Below, piece after piece: positions 2,126-18,826 of a DNA stretch of 18,851 nt (within the stretch, counting starts at the first letter, position 1; each line of letters starts with the position of its first letter). A model generated the notes under the pieces. The model searched no databases. It saw only the letters and a list, made by a program, of their open reading frames with translations, and was not told the DNA's origin. Source of the DNA: Polyrhizophydium stewartii (taxonomy: Eukaryota > Chytridiomycota > Chytridiomycetes > Rhizophydiales); assembly GCA_027604665.1 (NCBI GenBank), contig JADGIZ010000228.1, forward strand, positions 1-18,851, in the 5' to 3' direction. A program made the translations under genes and the position numbers.

Positions 2126-5100
2126 TCACTGCTCGCTCTGGGGTGAGGTGTCTTGGTTGGCAGCCGCATGCTCGCGCTCAAGAAGGGCATGGCTGTCAAT
2201 GCCGAAGACGAGGACATTTCGTCGCAGATTCTGTCCGTGAAAGCGGGTCAGCACTGCTGGTGGCCGGGAACGTGCTGCCATCGGCAGACCTTGAGAAACT
2301 GATCCTTGGCTATCATCGTCTTGGGCTTGAGCAGCTCCGCGGGCTGATCAAAACCGCGTGCGAGGTATTCGTCCAGATCCGCCTTGCGCTTGTCAGGATC
2401 AAATTGGGCCAGGATTTTTGCCGCGTCCGATACAGTCAGTGAAGGGTCCTTTGAGAAAGCGTCAAAGAGCTTCTGCAGGCCTTGGATGTACTGCGTTCGT
2501 TGCTCGATTTCTTGCTCTCGCACGACGTCCAAAAAGATGCTTTCTCCCTCCGACTCGAACAACCAGCGGTATGTGATGCTTGAGCCGGGCTGGTCACTGT
2601 CAAGAGCCTGCGCATCGATTGTCAGATTCTCGCGGCGTGACAGGCAATCCTGAGCCGCGACGCACATTCTCCAGCATCTCGCGTTGTTGATCGCTCTTTG
2701 AAGGCCAGAACTTCTTGAGCGCAATCATGAGCTCTGCGCGCGGCACAAATCCACGCGCTTTGCCGTCGTGAATATGCAAATCAAGTCGGTAAAAGACGTT
2801 CTTGAGGCGCTCGATGCAGAGCTGCACGCGATGGTAGACCTCCTCCTCCACACCATCTGCACTCGGAGCGGCTCGTCAGACTGATCCTCAGAGCAGCCGT
2901 CATGGCGCACGCGGCATCTCACCGTTGAGAATGTCGTAGAATAGCTGGCAATCCGGGCTTTGGAAGCCATGCCTCTTGCACGCATCCATGATATTGTATC
3001 CCCACTCGGCGATGATCTCCTGCGCGCCAAAGCGCTTCTTGAGGTACAGAAACAAAAAGTCGGCGAGCTTTGTGCGCTTTCCGTGGTTCTTTGGAGATGC
3101 GTCAAAGACGGCTTTGGCTTCCCATGTGTCGCGGATGAGTTGCAGGCAGTTGCGCTTTGTCAGGCGGCGGTTGATGACCTTGCCCTTGAATCTACACGCA
3201 TACAGCGTCAGCCGAGCCATTAGCTGCTTGCATTCGATCCTGAAAATACATCGACGTACCGCAGAAATTTTGGCACGTTGCTGCCAAGGCCTTGGCCGAC
3301 AAAGTACTGGACCTCGAGGTCCTCGTCGCGTTGCTTCGACGGGATCAGGCTGTGCGACAGCGCCAACGCGTCAGTGGTCCTTCAACAACATCTTCCACTA
3401 AAATCCGATGCTTACGCCGCAGATTCGGTTGGGGCTTCGGTCTTGGCTACCGGCGCTGCAGAGCGTGCCTGATCGCTCGCCAGAGTTAGCGACATCCACG
3501 AATGCACAAGGCACAGTGCTGCTGGGCACCTTGACGAGCTCGCGAATAAGCGTTGCAATCGTCTCGTTGTAGTCGAGCCCCTTGGCCAAGTTCCAGAACT
3601 CGCGGATGCTCGAACCAAACCCGCTCTGGATGTACTCCCAGTCGGGAAACCGCTCCTCTTGGCTGTGCTTGAGCTGGGCCTCGACGTCCTTGATCTTCTG
3701 CTCCAGCTTCCCTCGGGCTTGGGCCTGGACGAATCGTGTTTCAGTCAACATCAACAAACGCGTAGCAAATCAAGGTATCATCACCGCACCGCTTGCAGCG
3801 CCTCGTCTTCGAGCTTGCGCATGTCAATCAGCGCCTTGTCGAGCTGCTGCTTTACGCGCTCGTGCTCAAGAACCGAGACACTTTTTGCAATTGACTTTTT
3901 GAGCATCGCAATCTCGCTGTAGACATCCGCAAGCTCTTGCTTGGCTGAGCTCAAACCGCATGCATTGTCAGCCGCCAGAGCAATGCAACACACTTGAATT
4001 GAGCTCACCGCGTTTGTTGTTGATTTCCAGCTCGGATATCTCGTAATCCTTCTGCGCGAGCTTTTCTTTTGTGGCGTGCTCGTAGTTGGCGTACTCGATT
4101 GAAAGCTGCCTCAACTCGGCTTGCTCCGGCGTTTCCCTCGTGTATTCTTGTATCTCGCGCCGGCGCATTTCGTCCACAAGCAACTGGTACTTTTTCTCGT
4201 GTGCGGCAATCTCCTTTTGGTGGCTCTCGATCTCGCGCATGAGCGCGGCGTTTTCGTTGCTTTCATGATGCATAGCGTGTTAATCCAGGCGAAGGGGCGT
4301 GGCATGCGCATCATGCAAACGCCTACCTTACGGCCCGCATGGCGACTAGGGCCTCGTCGCGGACCTTGTCGAGCTCCTGCGCAGCCTGAAACTTTATGAC
4401 GGACAGCTTGCCTTTCAGTGGCTCATTATGTACCCGTCAAGGTGTCTCGCATCAGGAAGGCGGCCGAGGGTGAATAGGCGCGCACAAGCGACGCAGGCGG
4501 GAAAAGGATATAGCTTATCGAGCGCCTCCCTCTGCTGCCTAATGAGCACTTCATACTCGTTCTTGATCTCTGAGAGGACGGGCTGGTAAGTCTTGAACTG
4601 ACTGATAAAGTGCTCTGATGCGCATGTGAGCCGTGATTGTGGTCTGATTGGACAGGATGCTCGGCGGGCTCACCGAACGCCTCGCGAAAGACCTGTATCC
4701 GGCGTGGATCACCGGTAGGAGCACTGGCGCCGAGTCGACAGGGTAATCAGCGCTGCTTCTGTGTAAACATGCAGAACAATCAAGTTTCGGCTTACTTTGA
4801 CGCGCCGAGTGTTCGCAATTCCTCGCGGATGTATCGCAGCATATCCAGAAGCAGCGCAGGCTGCGTGCTGTCGCCTGGCGCAATGATGGCAGAAGATGCT
4901 GCATGCCCTGTGTGTCCAGATCCGTGCGCGTGTGCGTGAGGGTGCGCAGCAGTTGCGGCCAGTGCAGGCGAGGAGGGCTTGAGCCCGCGGCGTGCTGTTG
5001 CGACTGCCGCCGACTTGGCTGCAAGAGTGCGAGTGCCCGCAGAGCCGGGACGCGACTGGGACGACAGCGCGAGCGGTGCGCCAGAAAGCGAGCCAAGACC

Positions 5101-5409
5101 GAGGCGCTTGGCACGTGGCGACGAAGCCGTCGAGGACGCACGGGATGACGAGTCCCATGCTGTGCGTGGCTCTGCTGCGGCTTCGGCGTGGAGTTTGTGT
5201 GAGATGTGGTGTTGATGCAGATGATGCTCTTGAGGTGCTGCGCCGCCGAGCCCGCCAACGCCGCGCCGCTCGTCCGAGACGGCTATTGTGACCGAAGACG
5301 CCCAGAAACCCGGTGCCGGTGCCGACGCTGACGGCGCGTGCAGCATCGTGTCCGTTGGACGCACGAATGCCTTGCTGACGTTGTTGACACGGTCGCGGAT
5401 GCGCTCCAT
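2126..5409 (-). CDS. TSNAXIP1-like coiled-coil protein, 830 aa, 13 exons
   Basis: Model exons: 5409-4796, 4723-4674, 4614-4512, 4425-4327, 4259-4009, 3944-3790, 3724-3530, 3468-3416, 3349-3260, 3191-2923, 2856-2666, 2607-2290, 2230-2126. All phases agree. Residues 1-180 are low complexity with His-rich clusters (EHHLHQHHISHKLH, HPHAHAHGSGH). Residues about 185-300 match the TSNAXIP1 N-terminal domain (LLLDMLRYIREELRTLG, then VFREAFEHFISQFKTYQPVL and IKNEYEVLI). A coiled coil follows to about 455, then FPDWEYIQSGF...FWNLAKGL. The region 520-690 (PKFLRFKGKVINRRLTKRN, EWGYNIMDACKRHG, LFYDILN) and the TYRWLFESEGESIFLDVVREQ segment also recall this family. EF-hand-like helices lack full calcium ligands. 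In animals TSNAXIP1 is linked to testis and ciliated cells; a role in the zoospore flagellum is inference. The last exon is less certain: skipping its 59-nt intron gives an end at 2248. Confidence 0.74.
4426..4511 (-). other. Candidate U12-type (minor spliceosome) AT-AA intron
   Basis: The intron between exons 3 and 4 of the TSNAXIP1-like gene has no good GT donor where homology stops. Instead it starts ATATCCTTTT, an exact match to the U12 AT-type donor, and has CACCTTGAC, close to the U12 branch consensus TTCCTTRAC, with the branch A about 11 nt from the proposed end ATAA. Splicing there joins CT to T and restores ALDKLEPLKGKL in frame. A conventional alternative, 4492-4422 (GTCGCT...ATGAG), also keeps the frame but adds LYPFPAC. 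An AT-AC end would create an immediate stop. Confidence 0.5.
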
Positions 5410-5454
5410 GGCGCGAGACGGGTGTTCGAGCCTCGGGCAACCGCAGGCTTCGGC

Positions 5455-6498
5455 TTAATTCGGCTGGGCACGCGACAACATGGAAACGGCCGAGGCAACT
5501 GCCGCGCCGTCGGTCGTGCTGCGGGTGTACTCTGGTGTCGTGATGGCGACCCCCATGAAAACCTGCGGATTGCGGAAGTTCATCTCGGACGGCACCTCCG
5601 CGGGGAGCGCCATATGGATCTCTGGCACGGATATCTCGGCGAGAATGCGGGCAACATTTCGGTTTGTTACGCCTTGCAATACGAGCCAGGCGCACGATGG
5701 AGCGGAGCAGGTCCAGGCGCATGTCAGATCCAGGTGAGACCCTCGCATGCGGCCGTAAATGCGCACCTCCCCCAGGTAGGATCTGGATGCGCGACCCCGC
5801 GCGCTCGACAAGCTGCTTAAGGAGCGGCAGTCCCTCGAGCACGCTCGAATCCTGACCGCTGGTGAGCACGCGCTGGATGCCGCCAATTCTCACGAGAGCC
5901 TCGAGCGCCTCGAAGGGATCGCGGGTCATATCAAAGGCGCGGTGGAACGTGACGGCCATGGGCTGCGCCTCGCGGACGAGCTCGGCCGTGCGCTCTGCGT
6001 CGACGGTGCCGTCTGGATTCAGCAGCCCGAGCACGACGCCCGCTGCGCCAAGGGACCTGGCGATGCGGATGTCCGCGCGCATGGTCTCGAACTCGACGTC
6101 GGTGTAGCGGAAGTCGCCGCCCCTGGCCAAGGCAGGTGAGCAGCCAGTCGGCGGCCGCACGCAGGTTGTGGTGCCGCCGCACCTTGGGCGGATCATGACG
6201 TGCACGGGGATCTTGATGCTGCTGCAGCACAGCTTGATGGCGCCGGCGCTCGGGGTGGTGCCGCCTGCAGCTCGGGAGTCAGGCGTGTGGGCAGCAGTCC
6301 AAACGTCGGCAGCCGAGACGGTGCACCTTCGAGCAGGTTGGCGCAGAGCTCGACCCTCGCTGCGCCGTTGCGCTCTGGCCGCGCCGAGTCAGCACTGGCC
6401 TGCTCCGCCCGGCAGTACCGGCCAGCATGCATGAAAGGGGTACCTGCGGTGATGGCGCTCTCAACAGACTCGAGGCACACTTCGAGAGCAACAGGCAT
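5455..6498 (-). CDS. CUTC: CutC family copper homeostasis protein, 252 aa, 5 exons
   Basis: Exons: 6498-6444, 6374-6327, 6264-6183, 6122-5767, 5672-5455; introns are 69, 62, 60 and 94 nt and phases all fit. The protein is a full-length CutC TIM barrel: LEVCLESVESA at the first strand, RVELCANLLEGGTTPS, PVHVMIRPRGGDF, GVVLGLLNPDGTVD, VTFHRAFDMTRD, RVLTSGQ and ILPGGGV. Cys8 and Cys29 have the same 21-residue spacing as the two Cys implicated in copper binding in human CUTC. The enzyme activity of the family is not settled; roles in cytosolic copper handling have been proposed. The name comes from bacteria, but five exons show this is a resident eukaryotic gene. The stop codon is only 45 nt before the ATG of the TSNAXIP1-like gene and in the same frame. 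Confidence 0.96.
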
Positions 6499-7549: not shown

Positions 7550-8593
7550 ATGACCGTGAGCCCGCGCCGCGACGCCGTCGACATGCGACACCCCTCGGGC
7601 CGCGGCCGGCGACACCCCGCCCGCTGTCCGCGCACGCACGGACGTTGGCGGCCCCGGCACTGGCATCCATCCATCCGCCGAATCCGTGGGCGCGCGCGCC
7701 TCGACGGGTGTCCTGCCGCGGACGGATGGATGGATGGATGGGTCCTGGGTCCCAATAGCTGGCCAGTGATGGCCGCCATGCCACCCGCTCCGCAGGCGCT
7801 GCGCGATTATTCGGAGCCTCGAGCCTCGGCGACTGCGTGCGCCGTACGAAGACAGCGTGCCTAGCGCCAGCCTCGCTCCAGCTGCCCGCACCCTGTCTCC
7901 CCTGCGACAGGTCCGGCAGCAGGCGACGAGCCGACGGGCGGCGGCAGTGGTGCGGCAGAGGTGCTGCCGCGCCGCGGGGGCTGCTTCCTGTGCTGCTGGC
8001 GCTACCGCAGCCCGGCCGCCGTCCGAGCATTTCCAACACGCACTCTTGGCGAGCTCTCTGCAGAGTCTGGTGTGCTGACCCATCTCGCTCCGTCTGCAGC
8101 TCGCCGTCGACCTTCTCAACCCTCTCGAGACCAGCGAGCGCCGCAGGCACAAGCTCAAGCGCCTTGTGCAGAGCCCCAACTCTTACTTCATGGACGTCAA
8201 GTGCCCTGGTGCGTGCCCACAGCCGCCGCGTCGTTCCTCTGGCCACGATGCGATGCGCCACGGCGCCGTGATGGCCGCCGTCCACGTCAGACTGGTCGAT
8301 TGGATCGGACGCCTGCACGAGCCGCAGTGCTTGAAGCGCCTGGTGTGCTGACAATGCTCCTCTTCGCCAACAGGCTGCTTCCAGATCACCACCGTCTTCA
8401 GCCACGCACAGACCGTCGTCCTCTGCAGCGGCTGCTCCAACGTTCTCTGCCAGCCCACTGGTGGCAAGGCCCGCCTGACCGGTGCGTCGCGGCTGGGCGT
8501 TGCGCCGTCAGCAGGAAGGAACTGCTCGCGAGATGCTGACCGTTTCGGCGATTCAATGCAGAGGGCTGCTCGTTCCGCAGGAAGTCGGGTTAA
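7550..8593 (+). CDS. RPS27: 40S ribosomal protein eS27, 84 aa, 4 exons
   Basis: Exons: 7550-7555 (ATG ACC only), 8100-8208, 8374-8481, 8562-8593; introns are 544, 165 and 80 nt with phases 0, 1 and 1. The protein reads [10 protein letters not shown], then [41 protein letters not shown], and ends [10 protein letters not shown]. Length equals the usual 84 residues. The four zinc-binding cysteines (CPGC and CSGC) are intact, one pair being split by intron 2. The tiny first exon was chosen because ATGACC is followed by a good GTGAGC donor, no ATG occurs closer to exon 2, and joining gives the family N-terminus exactly. All three introns carry TGCTGAC upstream of the acceptor. It is a component of the small cytosolic ribosomal subunit. 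Confidence 0.97.
7556..8099 (+). other. Long first intron of eS27 (544 nt)
   Basis: This is by far the longest intron and the only non-coding stretch over 300 nt. It holds a GGAT microsatellite and a perfect 14-bp inverted repeat, GC-rich sequence, and GTGCTGAC about 20 nt before the acceptor. A snoRNA was looked for because ribosomal protein introns often host them; AGTGATGG near 7765 resembles box C, but no matching D box was found. Confidence 0.7.
7664..7736. repeat. Inverted repeat with 14-nt arms plus GGAT microsatellite
   Basis: CATCCATCCATCCG at 7664-7677 is the exact reverse complement of CGGATGGATGGATG at 7723-7736, separated by 45 nt. The right arm continues as GGAT units to about 7742. 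The transcript could fold into a strong hairpin inside the eS27 intron. Confidence 0.85.
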
Positions 8594-8744: not shown

Positions 8745-11700
8745 ATGCTCTCGCGCCGACACGCCACGGCGCTGCTGGCGTTGCCGGCGCTGCTGTCCTG
8801 CGTGGCGCGCGCCGCCCCCAACGTCTTTGGCAACAACCGCTTCTTCTACAAGAGCCTCGAGGCCGACGGCGTGTCGTTCGTCGCCGGTCGCCAGGTGCGT
8901 CAGTCTGTCTCCGCGCCTGCGTCAGATCTGTCTGCCAACACGGCGTGCAGTTTGTGCTCGGCTATGCCTCCACGGCCACGACCGTCACATGGGCCAACCC
9001 CAGCAACGACTGCACATTTACGCTCAACGGCGCGACGGCCACGGGCTCCGTCACTGCCGGCGCCGCAGACACGGTCTCGGTCTCGTGTCCTGCCGCCGGC
9101 AGCCAGATGTTCACGGTGCTGCGCAACAGCGACGCCACCACCACAGACACCTTCTACATCACCCTTGCTGCGGCCCAGTGCTTCCGCTGGTTCGCCGTCT
9201 ACGGCACCGCTCCGCTCGCTGCCGGCTCGCTGGCGCTGGTCGCGCCGCTTTCGACCGCGGCGCTGCGCATCTGGATTGCCGACCCATCGAATCTGTCGGC
9301 CGCCGAGTCTGCTGGTTCTGCGACAACGCCTTCCACGGTGCGCCTGCGCACGAGCACGACCATGCCGCCAGTCTTGTCGCTGTTGAGACTGACCTTTCGC
9401 TGCCCTAGAAATCCGCCCAGATCACTAGCGCATTCGCCGCTATAGGCGAGTGGCCGTCGCTTTCGATGCCAAAGTCCAACTCGCTCGTGCTCAACAGCTC
9501 AACCTTTTCCCAAGCGGGGTCGTAAGTGTAGCCGCAAGGCAATATCTCTCACAGCGTCTGCCTATTTGACATCTTCGGCGCTGCAGATATTGGGAGTTTA
9601 CGTACTCGACAGGAACTGGCAGCCAGGTCTCGATCACCATCACGGGCCAGAACACCACGCTTCTGGAATGCTCCATCGAGCCCCTGTACTTGACCGCCTC
9701 CATCACAAAACTGTCGGCATCAAGCCTTGCCCTCGCCTCCTCTGCATCTGTCGGCTCTTCCGCCACGTCGTACTTTTCCGTCTACCAGGACGCTTGCGCG
9801 CCAAACGTCCTCCTCGCGGCTGGATCGACGCTCGGCGATGGACGGTTCGTACTGACCCAGTCTTTCTTTGGCGCATCAGATGCTTCGGTGCTCTACTCGC
9901 TGCCATCGACCATCAGTGCGGGCTCGAGTGTTCGCGGCATTGCATTTACCATGTCGTCCATTGTCGCACTCGTGACAAACGGCGCAGCAGTGGCAACAGC
10001 CTCAACCGGGTGGTTCTCGTCGTCGGGCCTGCCGAGCACGACCCAGCTCAACAGAGTCAGCAGCGTCGCGCACTGCGACCCGACGATGAACCGCACCTCG
10101 ACGTCGAACCTGGTGGTCGCCGCCTGGGACAGCACGTTCCGTTCACAGCCAGCCGCCACATCGCAGACACTTTACGTCTCAATGGATGCCGGAGCTTCTT
10201 TCGTTGCCGTGCCGATCAACGTCGACAAGCAGGCAGCAGGCGGCGGATACATCCGCGATGTGGTCATTGTGCACGCAAGCCAGAGTCTTGTGGTTCTTGT
10301 GCGCGACGGCTCTGCGTTCGACCGCATCGTGCTTGTGCCGATCAACCTGTCGGGCGGCTCCTCTGACGGATACCAGTTTCTTTCGTCTGTCAACCCGGGC
10401 GTCATACTCGATGCGGGCGTGAAGGGCTCGGCGCCGCGCCTGACGCCCGCATCCTCTGGCGCGAGCGATCTCCTGCTATGGGGCGACTCGCTTTTCTACA
10501 GCCCCAACAGCGGCACGAATGTGTTTGCGGTATCGCTGATCAGCCGTGACCCTGCCCGTCCGGCTGCGGGGCTCGACACGACCGAGTACATCAAGGCAGT
10601 GGCGACTTCCACAGCGGGCAGGTTTGCGGCGCTCACATCAACAAATCGGTGGGTGGATAACAGCAACATGTGTTTACTACAGTGCCCGAGGATAGCTGAC
10701 CGCTGCTCAGAGTCTTTTATGGTCAGATTGGCATTACCTCGGCAATCGAGCTCGCCGCGGGCATCGGGCCATCTGCATGTGGGTCTATGCATGGAAGCAC
10801 TTATGCTGATGGCGCATGCTGACAATAGCCGCTCAGTTGCGTCGATTGCCTTTGATTCGCTTGGCCGCCTGGCGTTCCTTTCACCTCAAGCGACGGCTCC
10901 GTTTGTGTCAATGCGCATCGTTCCTGCGGAAAATCAAGTGCTGAGCACAAGGTGAGCGATGGTTCAGCGAGTCTCTTTCGCCTTTCTTCTCGCTGAAATA
11001 CCGCGCCAGGGTCCCCGCATCTGCCAACCCGGCCCTCGTCTGCCCGTATCAGTACTGGAAAGTGGACGCCGAGCCAGAGTACATCCTCGACTACGGTGAG
11101 AGCCAGGCGTGTGCTTGAGCGTGTGTGCCAGGCCTTCAGCATCGCTGACAACGCCGCAGGCCAGTCAGTCGACATATCTTCCACATTGCTGCCCCTGACG
11201 CCCGCTACTTCAGGTTCAATCTCTGTGAGTGCGACCCGTATTCTGCCTATGCAGGCCGACACACTGACGCATGCATTGCAGATTCGCCAGACAAACACCT
11301 CCTTGGTCAAGGCGTCCATCTCGACGTCAGAGCAGTCGATCCCGTCCAGCGGTGGCGTGTATCTTCAAAAAACCACATCTGTGCACATTGCAACCAAGGC
11401 TAAGACCTACCAAGGGAGGCTCGAGGTGCAGATCCGACCCAAGGAAGACAGCCTTGTTTGTCCGGGGAGGCCAAAGACGACAGTCATTCGCGTCGGATGC
11501 CCGCCAAACCGGCGGCTCGTCCTTCGCACTGCAACCAAGACGACGCTGCTACCATCTCCTTCGCCTCGCTACAATTGGGGCCACCGGTATTCAACGAGCC
11601 ATGCAACGACAGATGCTGCAACAACAGCAGCAGCAGACTCGCATGCAACATATGCAGCTTCCGCGACGGATACGAGCCTCCCGACTATTGCGACAACGAC

Positions 11701-12654
11701 AGACTGCTCGCTTGCACCAACGCAAGTCACGCTACCCAAGGGGTACTGGATCTCTGATTGGGCCAGTCTGTCTCGCGGCGCCAGTGATAAGGTGTCATGG
11801 CGTCTTTGCGGCTGTCAAGCTCCGCACTTCAGGCTGACCTGCGGCGCTGGAAAATACAGACCGTCGACTACAACTGCACAAAGTTTGGCGTCCCGATCCC
11901 ACTGTACTACGGCGACTTTTTTCAGCCCGTGTTCGACGTCTTTGACGGCGATGTCTATGTTGACACGCCCGACGTCGACATTGCGCTGTTCGAGTACAAC
12001 GGCCGCACGAGCTTCACCTTCAACACGACAATGGAGCAAGCCGGCTGCCGCGTCAAGGCGCAGGACTGGATGCTGCTTGCGGCTTCTTCGCCCACCGCCC
12101 CTTGGGACGCCCTGACGTCGTCTGTGGGTCGAACTCTTTGAACATGGCCGCGATGGAGCGATCCCGCTGACTCTCATACTCGCAATGCAGAACTACGTCA
12201 AGTGCTATAGCTCGGCGGCCGATGGCACCATCAGCCGAACCGACAAGGCTGCGGCATACACGATCATGAATGGCACCAATCTCAACTCTGTCTTGTGGGT
12301 CGACGGCCAAGGCGGCTATTTCGTGTTTCGAGCGCGAGTTCTGGATCCGGCATATAGGTTAGAGAGCATGCATTGATACCAACACCGCATCCACTGACGC
12401 GGCGCATTCTGCACGTGGCCAGCTACTGCGATCTGACCGCCGACTTTGCAGTCAATGTCATTGGTGCCCCACTGTTCTGGGGATACCAGCTTCTGATTGT
12501 CCTGGGAGTTTGCGCCATCGGCGTCGGCGTGCTGTGTTACACATATTGGATTTACGCGGCCCAGCAGCGAGCCATCCGTGAAGAGGAAAACAGCAAGACA
12601 TCCGATTCGAGCAGCGCGAACCTCAACAAGTCGCAGAGACAAAAGATCGACTGA
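8745..12654 (+). CDS. CatSper auxiliary subunit, delta/epsilon-like, 1072 aa, 12 exons
   Basis: Exons: 8745-8894, 8951-9337, 9409-9521, 9587-10648, 10711-10778, 10837-10951, 11010-11095, 11160-11224, 11282-11791, 11860-12123, 12191-12357, 12423-12654. All phases fit. Residues 1-24 are a signal peptide (HATALLALPALLSCVARAAP). CFRWFAVYG and LRIWIADPSNL, then a beta-rich region to about 630 including AGRFAALTSTNRVFYGQIG, suit the propeller headpiece of CatSper beta/gamma/delta/epsilon subunits. VGCPPNRR (about 753-760), then FGVPIPLYYGDFFQPVFDVF, GRTSFTFNTTMEQAGC, NYVKCY, and FVFRARVLDPAYSYC (about 983-998) follow the conserved extracellular stalk. One membrane helix at about 1017-1040 ends in a short Lys/Glu-rich tail, so the topology is type I. 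In animal sperm these subunits cap a flagellar calcium channel; a role in zoospore or gamete motility is inference. Which paralogue it is remains open; epsilon is slightly favoured. Confidence 0.82.
11619..11636 (+). repeat. CAA/CAG trinucleotide run in CatSper-like exon 9
   Basis: A short CAA-CAG run sits in a low-complexity stretch that encodes Ala and Thr (residues about 765-822 of the model) between the VGCPP motif and the next conserved block. It looks like an expanded loop of low constraint. Confidence 0.6.
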
Positions 12655-12758: not shown

Positions 12759-15700
12759 TCAGCCGTCATCCAGCGCAGCCTTGAGCTTCGACATCCGGTC
12801 GTGCGTTCTCCTCCGATGGGAATCAAGCTCGGTGATCAGAACCTTGATCTCGGCTTCCTGAGTCTCGACGACGCCCTTACATGTGGCAAGGTCTTGCCGC
12901 AGATTTGCAATCGTCTCGATCATTCCGAGGCGCTCGCGCTCAAATGCTTCTATGCGCTGCAGCGCACTCTGCGCCTTGTGTCAACCTAAACACGGCGAGA
13001 ACGAGATTTCTTGCCATTGGAATCGTACCTGTAGCTTCTGCTTCATGGCCTCGATCTCGCCTGCCTGCTCTGCCCGGATGCGGCCCTCCTTGGCCTGAAA
13101 GTGCTGCTGGATGCGCGCGACCTGTCGGCCAACTCTCACTTAGCCGCGCAGCCGGGCAGGGGGCTCCTCGGACAAGACTGACCTCTTGCTCAATCTTCTC
13201 GATGCTCTCGTTGCGCTCGCGGAGACGCGCGCGCACTTGCTCAAGCTCGACAGCGAAAGCGTCCCGGTCGTGCCGATACTCTTGTGCGACGGCGCGATAT
13301 CGATCTGCATTCGTGCGCAGCGCATCAATCTGCCTATGAATCAGCCACAAGGAGAGGTGGTGCAAAACAGCATACTCTCGGCTCAGTGCCTCTGCCCACC
13401 TGTGCGCGAAGATCTTTGACGGACTCGGAATCAATATGCCGCAGATCATCCATTTCGTCGCGGCACTCTTCGAGCTCCTGCACAATATGTTGGTACTCGC
13501 GGGTCTGCACGAGTACCATGAGTGGCCGTCAGAGCATGTCGGATGGTGGATTTCAACCCGTTAACAAGCCCCCCCAACCTTGTTCTCCAGGTTCTGCTTG
13601 AGCGTGCGGATCGTTTCGTTTTGGTCTTCCAGCATCTTGGTCTTGACGCGCACGGCCTGGTCAAGTGCCTCACTTTGCTTGCGCAGATTCTCCGACTCTT
13701 CAACGCAGGCCTTTTTGACTCTTTGGAGCTCGTCAGCGAGCCTGTTTCGCTCAGCGTTCTGTTTGCAGAACGTCAGTGTCCAACAAATTTATCCGCCCCG
13801 CATACCAGACGCAAACTACATACACTGGCCGAAAGCTCATCCATCAGCAAGCGCTGCTTCTCGGAAATCTGTTCATGCGCCAACTGTTTCGACGCAAGCT
13901 CGCGTCGCAGGGCCGCGCATTCCTGATCGACTGCAGCGGCGTCCCTCGTTGCCGCAGCAGAGCGAGCTAGCTTGATTTCGAGTTCTGCAATCTGGCCCTG
14001 CATTTTCAACAGCGAACCAAGACGCCGGTTAGAGCAAGCCGTCCCTCAGGCCCATGGTATGGGAGCACGGGCTTACCTGCATGTGACGCGATGCTGTCTG
14101 GTTGCGTTCATGCAGAGTCGTGATTTTGGCCTTTTGCTCGCGCACCATGGCCGAGAGCTCCTTGATCAGCCCTGTCAGATCGGCTTCCTTTTCCTTCGAG
14201 ACTTTGAGACTGGCTTCGGCACTCTGCAGCTTCTCGTTGGTGTCTACCTGAACGCGCTCGAGTTCGGCTTGCTTGTTGCGCTCGGCTGATATCCCAAAAC
14301 CGAGTGAGCTGCAAGATCGGGCGTGTCGTGCTGACTCGCGGAGAGCCTCACCTTGAAGCATTGTTCTGAACTCGTCTTCGAGTGCCTTGTATGCCAGGCG
14401 GGTCTTGTCCAGCTCGCCGTGCGCAGCAGTAAGCTCGCGTGAGTGTGCTTCGACGAGCCGCATTGTCGCGTCTGCGATCGCTGCATTCAGATCGACCTTG
14501 TGCTGGCTGGATTGGGGTTCAGCATCGCACAAACTAGAGATCGTGGGTCCTCTGAGTTCCGAACATTGACGCACCTGTGCACGGTTTCGATGCGCGAATG
14601 AAAGTCGCTCTCGCGTGCGCTCATGGTCGACTGCAAGTGCATTACTTCCGTCTGAAGGCAGCCCACAGTCTCGCGCAGCATCTCGGCCTCGCGCTTCGCC
14701 TGTCTAAGCTCGTCAGCGCATATTCTCCTGACATGCATTTGGACAAGCGAGGTGCTCGGACCTCGGCAACTTTGACTTTGTGGCCTTCGCGGTCCTTGAG
14801 AAACTTGATGGCCGAGCGCTTGTTCTCGGCCTCGAGCTCTTGGCACCTGTGCCGCGTTTCCTGGAGTGCAGCCTTGTCCGGGTGGTTGAAGCTCAGCAAC
14901 AGCATAACAGGTGCGCCAAACAGCACAGCGCACCTCGAGTTCAAGCCCGTGCTTGCGCGATTGCTCGAGCTCTTTCCTTCTTTCAAGGAGCTCTCGCTCT
15001 GCCGCGTCGCTGGCACTTGCGAGCCGCCCAAGCTCGGCTCTCTGCTGCGAGAGCAGACCCTCCGCCTCGGTGAGCCGCGACTGCGTCTGCGCGAGATCGG
15101 CAGCAAGCTTTTCAGAGACGCCCTTGACACCCGAGAGCTCCGTGGCTGCTCGCGTGAGCTCGTGCGACTGCTTCTCGACGTGCGCTCGCTGATGCACTGG
15201 CGTGTCAATATCACTCGCCCGTCTCTCATCAAGCGGATACGAGGCACGCTCGACTCACAAGGACCTTGACCTGGTCGCGCAGTGGAGCGACGAGTTTGGA
15301 GGTTTCACGCTCAACGCGAAGCTCCTCCATCAGCGATCGAATCTTCTCGGCGTATCGCTGCTCGTTTTCGCGCAGTCGGCGCTCCTCCTGCTCCAGTGCT
15401 GCAATCAGTCGGGCGTTGGCCGCAAGCGCTGTATCGGTCGCTTTGCTACGTTTTGCAATTGTCTGCGCGGACACCAAACCGCCTGTTGGCTGGGAATGTG
15501 TCGGCATGCGCGATGGCCTGACAGTCGGATCAGCGCAAGCCAGTGTTTGGTCGCACTGCCTATCGCCGACATCCCACCCTGCAGATTGGCCGCTGCGCGC
15601 GCGCTGAGATGTCGCGGGTATCTGCCGCGTCGGTGAAGATGGCGTGACGTCGTCGCGATCAGGCGTATCCTCGATCCAAACAAGCGACATGTTCTTGGCT

Positions 15701-17478
15701 CCCTAAGCACGCAGCGGATGAATCAGCGGCGCGGGGCAGCGATGACACTGTTGTGCCGGGCACACACGGGAACATCTGGCACGCGTGCTGGTATTGTGAC
15801 AACAGCGTCTTGCGAGGTCAACGCTTGATCTGCAGAAGTTATGGTGGTCTGATCCACAATCCGCTTGCGCATCAAGAGATGCTGCCGCTGATGCTCCTGC
15901 AATCGCGGTTCGCGACGTTAGACAGAGCGCTCGCCAGCAAGAGCGAACGCGGCTGAATGACCCACGCGTGCAATCTCCTGATTGACACCAGATGGCGGCC
16001 TGGATGGCTGACTGGTTTCAGTTCGAGACTGCTCTTGCTCTGCAACAGGGCGAGGCTGATCCTGTGCCGGTGCCTGCTCGTGTGCCTGCACCTGAGCATG
16101 CTGGTCGAAAACGGCAACGAGTCGCTTGATTTGCGCTTCCAGCTCGCCAATCCTGCCCTTCTCATCGTTGTCGTTTGCATTTCGCTCGTTCCGGGTGGAA
16201 ATCTGTGTCTCCGAAAGTCGTGCGAGCTGCGACTCGAGTGCACGGATCCGCTCCAAGAGCACAGCCGACGGATCACAGGTGCTCGATCCCGACAGAGCAG
16301 CAGGCTCGCCCTGAGACTGCTGGCCAAGAACTCCAACCTGCGACTCGATGGCGGCGAGCCGTTCGGCGAGCTGCGCAACGGCGCCGCCGACAGTCAGGGC
16401 AGAAGCCTGGTCAACGACAGACGCGGACGGCCGCAGCCCATCGCCTTGACTTGCAGATGCACTCGAAATGGGTCGTGCTGGACTAGCAGCCCGCGTAGAT
16501 CGCGAACGATGCTGATGCTGACTTTGGCGCAGAGCTGCAGGATGTCCGTGAACAAGACTCTCGTATGCCGCGAGATCAAAGTCGTCCACCCCTGCTCCTG
16601 CAACAGGCACCGAGACGGTGGTTCCGCGAACGTCGCGGCCGTCCAGAGACGCGATCTGCGGAAGCAAGCGGAATATGACTGCCCGCTGATACGTTGCAGG
16701 CGCGCAGATGGGGTTGATGCGGCTGGTGCGGAGGTCGCCGGCAAGCACGAGATGCTGGAGTCGCTGTGATCGCGGGCAAGAGCAGCGTGTGCAGGTGAGC
16801 GGCGGAGTGAACCTGAGTAGAATAGTAAATCAATGACTCACAGTGCATCCAGCAAGGAGCGACAGTTGGCCAGCGTCGCTGATGAGATTGCCTTTGAGGT
16901 CCAAAGTCGACAGCGAGTGGAAGTCGCCATGTGCATCGACGATGCCCGCCAGGCTCTCGACGCGATTGAAGGACAGATTGAGCCGCTGCAGTCGCTTGAG
17001 AGGCCGCAGACCTTGGATGCACGATATCTGTACGGGCTTCAGCGTGCGCTACGCGGCAGGCACAGATGCAGATGCAGAAGCAGATCCCCGCGCACCATGT
17101 TGTTGGCCAGATTCAGATCGACGAGTGTGGGCACTGCCTCGACGCCATCCATGGACTGCAGCTGCAGGTTGTGTGCCAAGGCGTATCAGCACACAATATC
17201 CAGAACACGGGCATAAATGCGCCGTGCGGGAGTGGGGAGGCTGACGAGTGAGGCTTGTCGATGCGGGCACTTGCGTTGTTGCTGGACAGGTCGAGCGACA
17301 CCAGGCGGACAAAGAGCGCCAGCACGCCGCGGTCAAGCGCGGCGATGCGGTTCGAGTGCAGCACGAGCGCCGCGACGGCGGCGAGGTCTGCCCGGGGGCC
17401 TTCGAGGTGAAGCAAGTCCTGCAGCGCCGCCAGGCCCTCGTCGACGTGGCTGACCGTGCGTGGTGTGTCGGCGGCCAT
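12759..17478 (-). CDS. LRRCC1/VFL1-like basal body protein (LRR plus coiled coil), 1191 aa, 17 exons
   Basis: Exons: 17478-17275, 17161-17096, 17027-16842, 16763-15966, 15896-15783, 15702-15259, 15188-14934, 14872-14762, 14699-14575, 14506-14352, 14285-14077, 13997-13824, 13758-13579, 13504-13400, 13329-13183, 13121-13029, 12968-12759. Leucine-rich repeats fill residues about 20-165 (LVSLDLSSNNLQSMDGV, LVDLNLANNMISCIQGL, LQRLNLSFNRVESLAGI, LSTLDLKGNLI), closed by a cap (INPICAPATYQRAVIF, LPQIASLDGRDV). A Ser/Gln-rich linker with short coils follows, then heptad-rich coiled coil from about 520 to the end. This order matches LRRCC1/CLERC of vertebrates and VFL1 of Chlamydomonas, which sit in the centriole or basal body lumen and set its rotational polarity. 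Joining the LRR and coil halves rests on two phase-0 introns (15965-15897, 15782-15703) with good donors, branch motifs and acceptors. If they are not spliced, two genes result, the second starting at ATG 15690. Confidence 0.78.
17162..17274 (-). other. GC-AG intron in the LRRCC1-like gene
   Basis: Intron 1 starts with GCAAGT, the classical GC-type donor, and ends CCTGCAG with GTGCTGAT upstream. It joins SSNN to LQSMDG in phase 0, which restores the leucine-rich repeat register. No GT donor in the area gives phase 0 and the repeat. Confidence 0.65.
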
Positions 17479-17586
17479 GGCGCAGCGGCGGCGGGCGAGG
17501 GCCAGAAACGCCGTTCAGGCCGACTCCCGCTCCCGCTCCGAGACCGGCGCAACATGGTCGGTGCCCCGCAGCGCGGCATCTAGCGT

Positions 17587-18826
17587 TCATTGCATATGCG
17601 GACGCAGATACTCAGCCAGGTCGCCGGCCTGCCATGGGAGCGCTTCGCCGGTGTGCGCTGGGGGCCGCGGCGCGGCGGCAACGGCCGATCCGTGGCTCAT
17701 GGCCGTCTCGGATGGTGCCCACCCGCGCACTCCCATCTGCCTGAGGGTCTCGCGGAGCACGGGCGGGCACTCTCTATTCGACGCGGACTTGAGGTGGCGG
17801 TCGCGCGCGTCCTTGCGATGGAATGCACGTCCGCAAAAGTGGCACACATACTTGCGCTCCATCTCGTGCGTCGAGCTGTGTCTGGAGAGAAGAAAGCGGG
17901 GGATGGGCGGAAGTGGGGAGAAGCTTGTAGAATAAGCATCACCGTAACTCTCTCGCACCGGTTGTTGGACTGCTCAGCGACAGGCACCCGCGAGAGCGCC
18001 TGTATGTTTAAAAGGGTGTGTGTTGATGAACTCACCGCTCTGCGTCGTGCTTGCGGCTGAAACGCTGCTTGCAGTATTTGCATCCGAACGGGTACTGGCC
18101 CGTGTGGGAGGGAAGGTGCGCCACGAGACCCTGCTTGCGCCGGAATGTCTTGCCGCAGAACGAGCATTCAAAGCGGTGGGCCGGATCGAGCGCGGGCTCG
18201 CAAAAGTCGGGCGAGAGGCCTGATATCGACGAGATCTCGATGGCGCTGCGGTGCGCCTGCGCCGACGTCGTCGATGGAGCCAGCGGTGTCGGGATCGGCT
18301 CGCACTGGAGAGGCGTTTGGATCTCGCTGGAAACAGTCGCTTGGGCGATCTCGCGCGGTGCATGGGCACTCAAAGGCGGTATGTAGTCAAGCACTTGGGC
18401 CGGAAGCGCTTGATCTCGAGGTGCGTGCTGGATAAGCTCGTGCGACGGTGGGTGTGTTCTGTCAATGCGCGCCATGTTGACGAGCGTGTGTGGATGCTGA
18501 GCAGCAGATCCATGCAGCATGGATGGGTCGTGTTGCGGCTCGGGGGCAGCCGGCCCCGGTGAGAACGGTTGTGACCGACCGAACGGAGTGCCGGCGGCGG
18601 CGAGTTCCCGTGTCGAAGCTGGGGTCGGCCAATGTTGCTGGGGAGGAACCAAGCCCGAGAAAGCGCATGACAAAGCGGCCGGTGCCTCTGTCGATGCTGC
18701 TTGGGACGCTGCCGAAGGCGAGGGCTGTCGCACATCTGGGCCGGCGGCAGGACGTGCCGTCGCTCGGGGCGGCTCGGTTGCCGGCGGGGTTGTTGTCGGG
18801 CTCGCTGCGAGACCGGGCGACCACAT
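17587..18826 (-). CDS. C2H2 zinc-finger protein, at least 361 aa, two exons (5' end may extend beyond window)
   Basis: Exons: 18826-18036 and 17881-17587; the intron of 154 nt (GTGAGT...CTCCAG) splits the second finger between Arg and His. Residues 1-210 are rich in Pro, Ala, Ser and Gln and look disordered, as in transcription factor activation regions. Three fingers follow: CSFCGKTFRRKQGLVAHLPSH, CKYCKQRFSRKHDAER followed by HSSTH, and CHFCGRAFHRKDARDRH. The first two are canonical C-x2-C-x12-H-x3-H. The third lacks the second His at the usual spacing and has Cys eight residues after its His (HLKSASNREC), so it may be a C2HC variant or degenerate. The likely role is sequence-specific DNA binding in the nucleus. 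The frame stays open for eight codons upstream of ATG 18826 to the edge, so an earlier start is possible. The LRRCC1-like gene begins 108 nt downstream. Confidence 0.82.

Follow-up and report, generated by a model that had tools for sequence, protein, structure and literature searches.

We analysed an 18,851-base stretch of DNA (the window) from the chytrid Polyrhizophydium stewartii, in which the main feature is a gene of the CATSPERD/E family at 8745-12654 on the + strand. The neighbouring genes were read from Pfam profiles and by eye. A CutC-family gene lies at 4712-6388 on the - strand (PF03932, 3.1e-46). Just upstream of the CatSper gene and on the same + strand, exons resembling ribosomal protein S27e occupy 8079-8500, recognized in part by a sub-threshold profile match (0.008) and for the rest by eye. 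The opposite (-) strand at 12759-17514 holds, as judged by eye, a leucine-rich-repeat fragment (weak LRR_8 match, 0.0011) and coiled-coil-like frames. These frames possibly form one centrosomal or flagellar gene, and a 303-aa piece of them had no PDB match. A zinc-finger fragment (zf-H2C2_2, sub-threshold at 6e-4) is located at 17590-17973, also on the - strand. A megablast search of the CatSper gene against phages gave no match.

We rebuilt the model of the CatSper gene from the DNA. Its 12 exons join into an open reading frame of 1072 aa with no internal stop and a single final stop, and all 11 introns run from GT to AG and measure 56-71 bp each. The first-pass annotation, made from the letters alone, had proposed this 12-exon, 1072-aa structure, and the rebuilding reproduced it exactly. 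All of the motifs that it quoted (LRIWIADP, AGRFAALTS, VGCPP, DVFDGD, GRTSFTFN, NYVKCY and VLDPAYSYC) are present in the translation, and its terminal helix corresponds to one long hydrophobic stretch at residues about 1004-1041. Beyond this stretch, one isolated hydropathy window at 335, inside the propeller, passed the threshold. The N-terminus stayed below the threshold that the terminal helix passed, and the putative signal peptide was recognized by eye only. We discarded a 13-exon draft encoding 1041 aa that placed introns at 11587-11657 and 11743-11832. Its linker was incorrect: two related proteins described below (P0002 and P0003) follow the alternative frame in their alignments, and this frame encodes a Ser/Thr-rich linker. 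The draft served as the query for the PDB and homologue searches, whereas the Pfam search used the final 1072-aa model.

To place the gene among public records, we compared residues 815-1015 of the draft with a set of 5.8 billion proteins and obtained two matches (P0001 and P0002) among 947 candidates. P0001 is HK105_003281, an 897-aa "hypothetical protein" of Polyrhizophydium stewartii (Chytridiomycota, Rhizophydiales). Five blocks of 179, 477, 42, 122 and 76 residues are letter-identical to the window and account for 896 of its 897 aa, so this record is the same gene in a shorter public model. P0002 is the orthologue from Entophlyctis helioformis, whose public name is "cation channel sperm-associated protein subunit delta-domain-containing protein". 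It aligns with every one of the 12 exons, and 569 of 1071 aligned residues are identical (53%). A second search with P0002 as the query recovered only itself and P0003 (2 of 440 candidates). This search missed P0001, so its sensitivity is limited and the number of fungi carrying the gene cannot be read from it. P0003, an unnamed 745-aa protein, aligns from within exon 4 through exon 12 (349 of 731 residues identical), and its alignment is gapped in the linker of exon 9.

The public P. stewartii model is without window residues 180-183, 661-698, 741-852 and 975-996. Exon 3 thereby loses four residues and exon 11 loses 22, while exon 8 and the greater part of exon 9 are missing. The VGCPP motif is among the lost parts, and the score of the public model against CATSPERE_NTD2 is 21.4, under the cut-off of 27. 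We consider the 12-exon model to be the better one because all four omitted pieces align in P0002 and the last three also align in P0003, which has gaps in the linker and starts later. The same comparisons bear on the idea that the gene is contaminating DNA from an animal or was wrongly pieced together when spliced by eye. The contig comprises 18,851 bases only, and P0001 may derive from the same assembly and is therefore not independent proof. However, the orthologue in another chytrid, E. helioformis, matches exon by exon, and the mouse proteins are just 26-33% identical in the best domain. We regard the probability of contamination or artefact as negligible, and the CATSPERD/E-type gene in the window is confirmed as real.

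The domains follow one another along the exons, all on the + strand. Exon 1 (8745..8894) provides the start codon and the N-terminus; its 50 aa, which include the putative signal peptide, are identical to P0001, and 27 of the 50 are identical in P0002. Exon 2 (8951..9337) encodes the N-terminal domain and the start of CATSPERE_NTD2 with the LRIWIADP motif, and exon 3 (9409..9521) encodes the remainder of NTD2, both placed by Pfam and alignment; exon 3 begins with KSAQ, which is in P0002 and not in P0001. The NTD2 model (PF22843) matched at 2.7e-8 with 34.2 bits against a cut-off of 27. The bulk of the beta-propeller is in exon 4 (9587..10648; 207 of 355 residues identical to P0002), and Beta-prop_CATSPERD (PF15020) matched residues 304-613 at 4.4e-10 with 39.8 bits against a cut-off of 27. 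By alignment, the propeller continues in exon 5 (10711..10778) and ends in exon 6 (10837..10951), and exon 7 (11010..11095) covers the CPYQYW region past it. Exon 8 (11160..11224) is missing from P0001 and aligns in P0002 and P0003, with 10 and 9 of 22 residues identical, respectively. Exon 9 (11282..11791) comprises VGCPPNRRLVLR and the Ser/Thr-rich linker; P0001 lacks 16 residues at the start of this exon and 112 at its end (741-852), 82 of its 170 residues are identical to P0002, and 64 of the 149 aligned to P0003 are identical. The CATSPERD/E C-terminal domain begins in exon 10 (11860..12123), which carries DVFDGD and GRTSFTFN, and continues by alignment in exon 11 (12191..12357), which carries NYVKCY and whose last 22 aa (975-996) are not in P0001. 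CATSPERD-E_C (PF22850) matched residues 848-1023 at 3.4e-28 with 99.1 bits against a cut-off of 27.4, and at 3.7e-10 in the genome search. Exon 12 (12423..12654) encodes the YSYC motif, the hydrophobic helix, a short charged tail and the stop, as assigned by hydropathy and alignment.

Besides these three CATSPERD/E models, each matched above its curated cut-off, the only Pfam match of the 1072-aa protein at E<=1 was a sub-threshold one to CATSPERB_C (0.0024), so the profiles do not place the protein in another beta-propeller family. The PDB search with the 1041-aa draft pointed the same way: the matches were to CATSPERE (5.6e-36 and 9.1e-36) and CATSPERD (1.1e-17 and 4.8e-17), and the next was only at 0.75. 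As sequence scores, these family E-values are far beyond anything that chance could account for. PF15020 missed the window's own propeller in a six-frame genome search and had no match in P0002. An AlphaFold2 model of P0002, built from 2 sequences only, had a mean pLDDT of 30.3 and was unusable.

We compared the protein with the two mouse subunits that it resembles. The best PDB match is mouse CATSPERE (7eeb chain H and 9ubw chain H); the NTD2 and C-terminal domain models match, and the stretches TFN.TMEQ.GC and LDP.YS.C are common to both proteins in the alignment. The P. stewartii protein differs from mouse CATSPERE in being fungal, in the Ser/Thr-rich linker that separates VGCPP from the C-terminal domain, and in its sequence, which is 33% identical in the best domain. 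The likeness to CATSPERD (7eeb chain G) lies in the C-terminal domain and in the propeller model PF15020, whereas the score is lower (66.5 versus 127 bits for CATSPERE) and the PDB search gave no NTD2 alignment to CATSPERD. In the C-terminal domain, 62 of 189 residues (33%) are identical to mouse epsilon and 49 of 186 (26%) to mouse delta, with PDB scores of 107.8 and 59.4 bits, respectively; the two mouse proteins are themselves 26% identical there. P0002 shares the C-terminal and NTD2 Pfam domains (33.0 bits for its NTD2) and has a longer linker and no PF15020 match. Although it is named delta, its PDB scores fall in the same order (1.3e-34 for CATSPERE versus 9.8e-20 for CATSPERD).

A tree of seven sequences with gamma as the outgroup gave a different picture. 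The three fungal rows cluster together with support of 90, and it is mouse delta, not epsilon, that joins them, weakly (support 48). Because the scores favour epsilon and the best tree weakly joins delta, we use the cautious label delta/epsilon-type for a protein that appears closer to epsilon by score and is possibly pre-duplication. This label leaves room for an alternative, in which the protein belongs to CATSPERD/E but corresponds to neither animal epsilon nor animal delta, as a form that predates their duplication or was kept separately, and the fungal canopy has fewer kinds of subunit. A search of the P. stewartii assembly (12,858,570 bases in 690 contigs, possibly incomplete) with PF22850 matched the window gene only and found no second D/E-family gene, which speaks for this alternative. 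So do the tree, which places the fungal rows confidently with neither mouse protein, and Chung et al. 2017 (PMC5362262), where delta is described as appearing later in evolution. However, the P. stewartii protein has CATSPERE_NTD2, and its C-terminal domain is nearer to mouse epsilon by both identity and bits. On balance we find this alternative possible but doubtful, and we note that it overlaps with the reading of the protein as a delta/epsilon-type subunit.

We searched the same assembly for the other CatSper subunits. The Ion_trans profile matched five places, two of which could be assigned. C269 is CATSPER3-like, with best PDB matches to CATSPER3 (1.2e-25 and 2.5e-25) ahead of a Cav channel at 2.8e-18. 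C26 is CATSPER2-like (7.9e-26 and 3.6e-25), by a small margin over the next match, a Cav channel at 5.2e-23; its filter reads TLDQ, followed by W on the far side of a join that was placed by eye. The genome accordingly has CatSper pore genes. The other three places (C401, C33 and C188) were seen as frames only and may include a further CATSPER. CATSPERG is encoded at C543 in a 494-aa open frame that matched CATSPERG_C (2.9e-18), and the first 259 residues of this frame matched only CATSPERG in the PDB at E<=1 (1.7e-17 and 2.1e-17). TMEM249/CATSPERtheta is at C175 (Pfam 3.7e-15; PDB 4.3e-10 and 5.9e-10). The companion genes proposed in the first-pass annotation thus turned up in part: the CATSPER2-like, CATSPER3-like and TMEM249 genes were found, but CATSPER1 and CATSPER4 were not, either at the two assigned Ion_trans places or in a search for the CatSper filter pattern. 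This pattern (F-x-L/I/V/M-x-T-x-D-x-W) occurred at three genome places versus one in a reversed control, and no channel-like frame was seen by eye at L019, the one of the three places that was inspected. CATSPERB was not found in the assembly with two Pfam models. The CATSPERG propeller model PF15064 had no match in the assembly, though the C-terminal model later matched C543, so negatives from propeller models mean little. Since PF15064 missed CATSPERG and PF15020 missed the window's own propeller, the negatives from the assembly do not show absence.

We consider it very probable that the P. stewartii gene product belongs to the canopy of a CatSper Ca2+ channel, as a delta/epsilon-type subunit (CATSPERD/E family) whose scores are nearer to epsilon. 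What was directly observed is how the gene is built, which family it belongs to, and that the assembly also contains homologues of the pore, gamma and theta subunits. The Pfam and PDB matches, the identity to a chytrid protein and these companion genes support the central proposal of the first-pass annotation, that a fungal genome encodes a CatSper subunit of the delta/epsilon type. The canopy roof over the CATSPER1-4 pore of mouse consists mostly of the propellers of beta, gamma, delta and epsilon (PMC9205950). When mouse TMEM249/CATSPERtheta is lost, the assembled complex is kept from leaving the cell body, and when the genomes of 1,256 eukaryotes were surveyed, TMEM249 grouped with the CatSper co-evolution network (both PMC10055175).

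By homology, the P. stewartii protein is likely to be a type I membrane protein with an N-terminal domain, NTD2, a beta-propeller, a stem and one transmembrane helix. The terminal helix would lie next to the tetrameric pore, with the propeller contributing to the extracellular roof as a neighbour of CATSPERG. TMEM249/CATSPERtheta would act as an assembly helper, and the subunits would join into one complex in the flagellar membrane. The flagellated cells of chytrids are zoospores or gametes. For this reason we consider Ca2+ entry controlling the flagellar beat to be the likeliest role, in which the channel would most likely admit Ca2+ to the flagellum of the zoospore or gamete and alter its beat and swimming. 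A CatSper-family protein could instead have been kept for a non-flagellar role, such as adhesion or sensing at the surface, in which it would not be part of a channel. The searches that did not find CATSPER1, CATSPER4 and CATSPERB in the assembly are in keeping with this, but the same assembly contains two pore genes, CATSPERG and TMEM249, and we judge such a role very unlikely. A further reading takes the gene set at face value: chytrid zoospores would run CatSper with one delta/epsilon-type subunit, perhaps pre-duplication, together with gamma and with neither beta nor a second D/E gene, and would use it to steer asexual swimming cells. We hold this to be unlikely. If it were true, the first job of the canopy would have been motility control in dispersal cells and not fertilization.

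We compared these results with previous studies. Chung et al. 2017 (PMC5362262), who cite Cai et al. 2014, traced CatSpere to the root of eukaryotes and included a fungus in their auxiliary-subunit screen. The suggestion of the first-pass annotation that the canopy is older than animals fits our results and is strengthened for Fungi, but it is not new, having been stated in that work. Its remark that a fungal auxiliary subunit is little described is only partly fair, because pre-animal auxiliary subunits are in print and the E. helioformis record already carries a CatSper-delta name. No title among the matches listed in the literature on CatSper in fungi or zoospores concerned a fungal canopy subunit; most subscription papers were outside the scope of this search. 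Kossakowski et al. 2026 (PMC13358043) give CATSPER1 or CATSPER2 as example subunits among the orthogroups of flagellated fungi and describe the CatSper complex as not universally retained; the main text of that paper mentions none of CATSPERB, D, E, G, TMEM249 and Polyrhizophydium. In the account of the Phytophthora parasitica zoospore membrane proteome (PMC12223298), no annotated calcium channel is described as resembling CatSper2.

What is new here is modest, namely the P. stewartii family member and a better gene model; the antiquity of the channel and canopy belongs to older work. A pre-animal origin of both is strengthened for Fungi, with a better gene model to test. Since genes for two pore subunits, for the assembly factor TMEM249 and for canopy subunits of both the delta/epsilon and the gamma type occur together in one chytrid genome, the swimming cells of a fungus could serve in place of sperm for studying the complex.

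We also aligned the selectivity filter of the CATSPER3-like pore locus (L003, at G000 C269) with 25 CATSPER3-like proteins (P0004-P0028), 8 of which come from fungi and bear the name "Cation channel sperm-associated protein 3" in existing records. Cys is the first filter residue in 16 of the 26 rows (CADGW, CGDGW or CGDNW); the P. stewartii locus is one of them, as are 11 of the 14 rows assigned to a named fungus. The filter is TADGW in 7 rows (P0020, P0021 and P0023-P0027, one of which is from a jellyfish), TAEGW in Cladochytrium and TASNW in Paraphysoderma, and the one remaining row is a gap.
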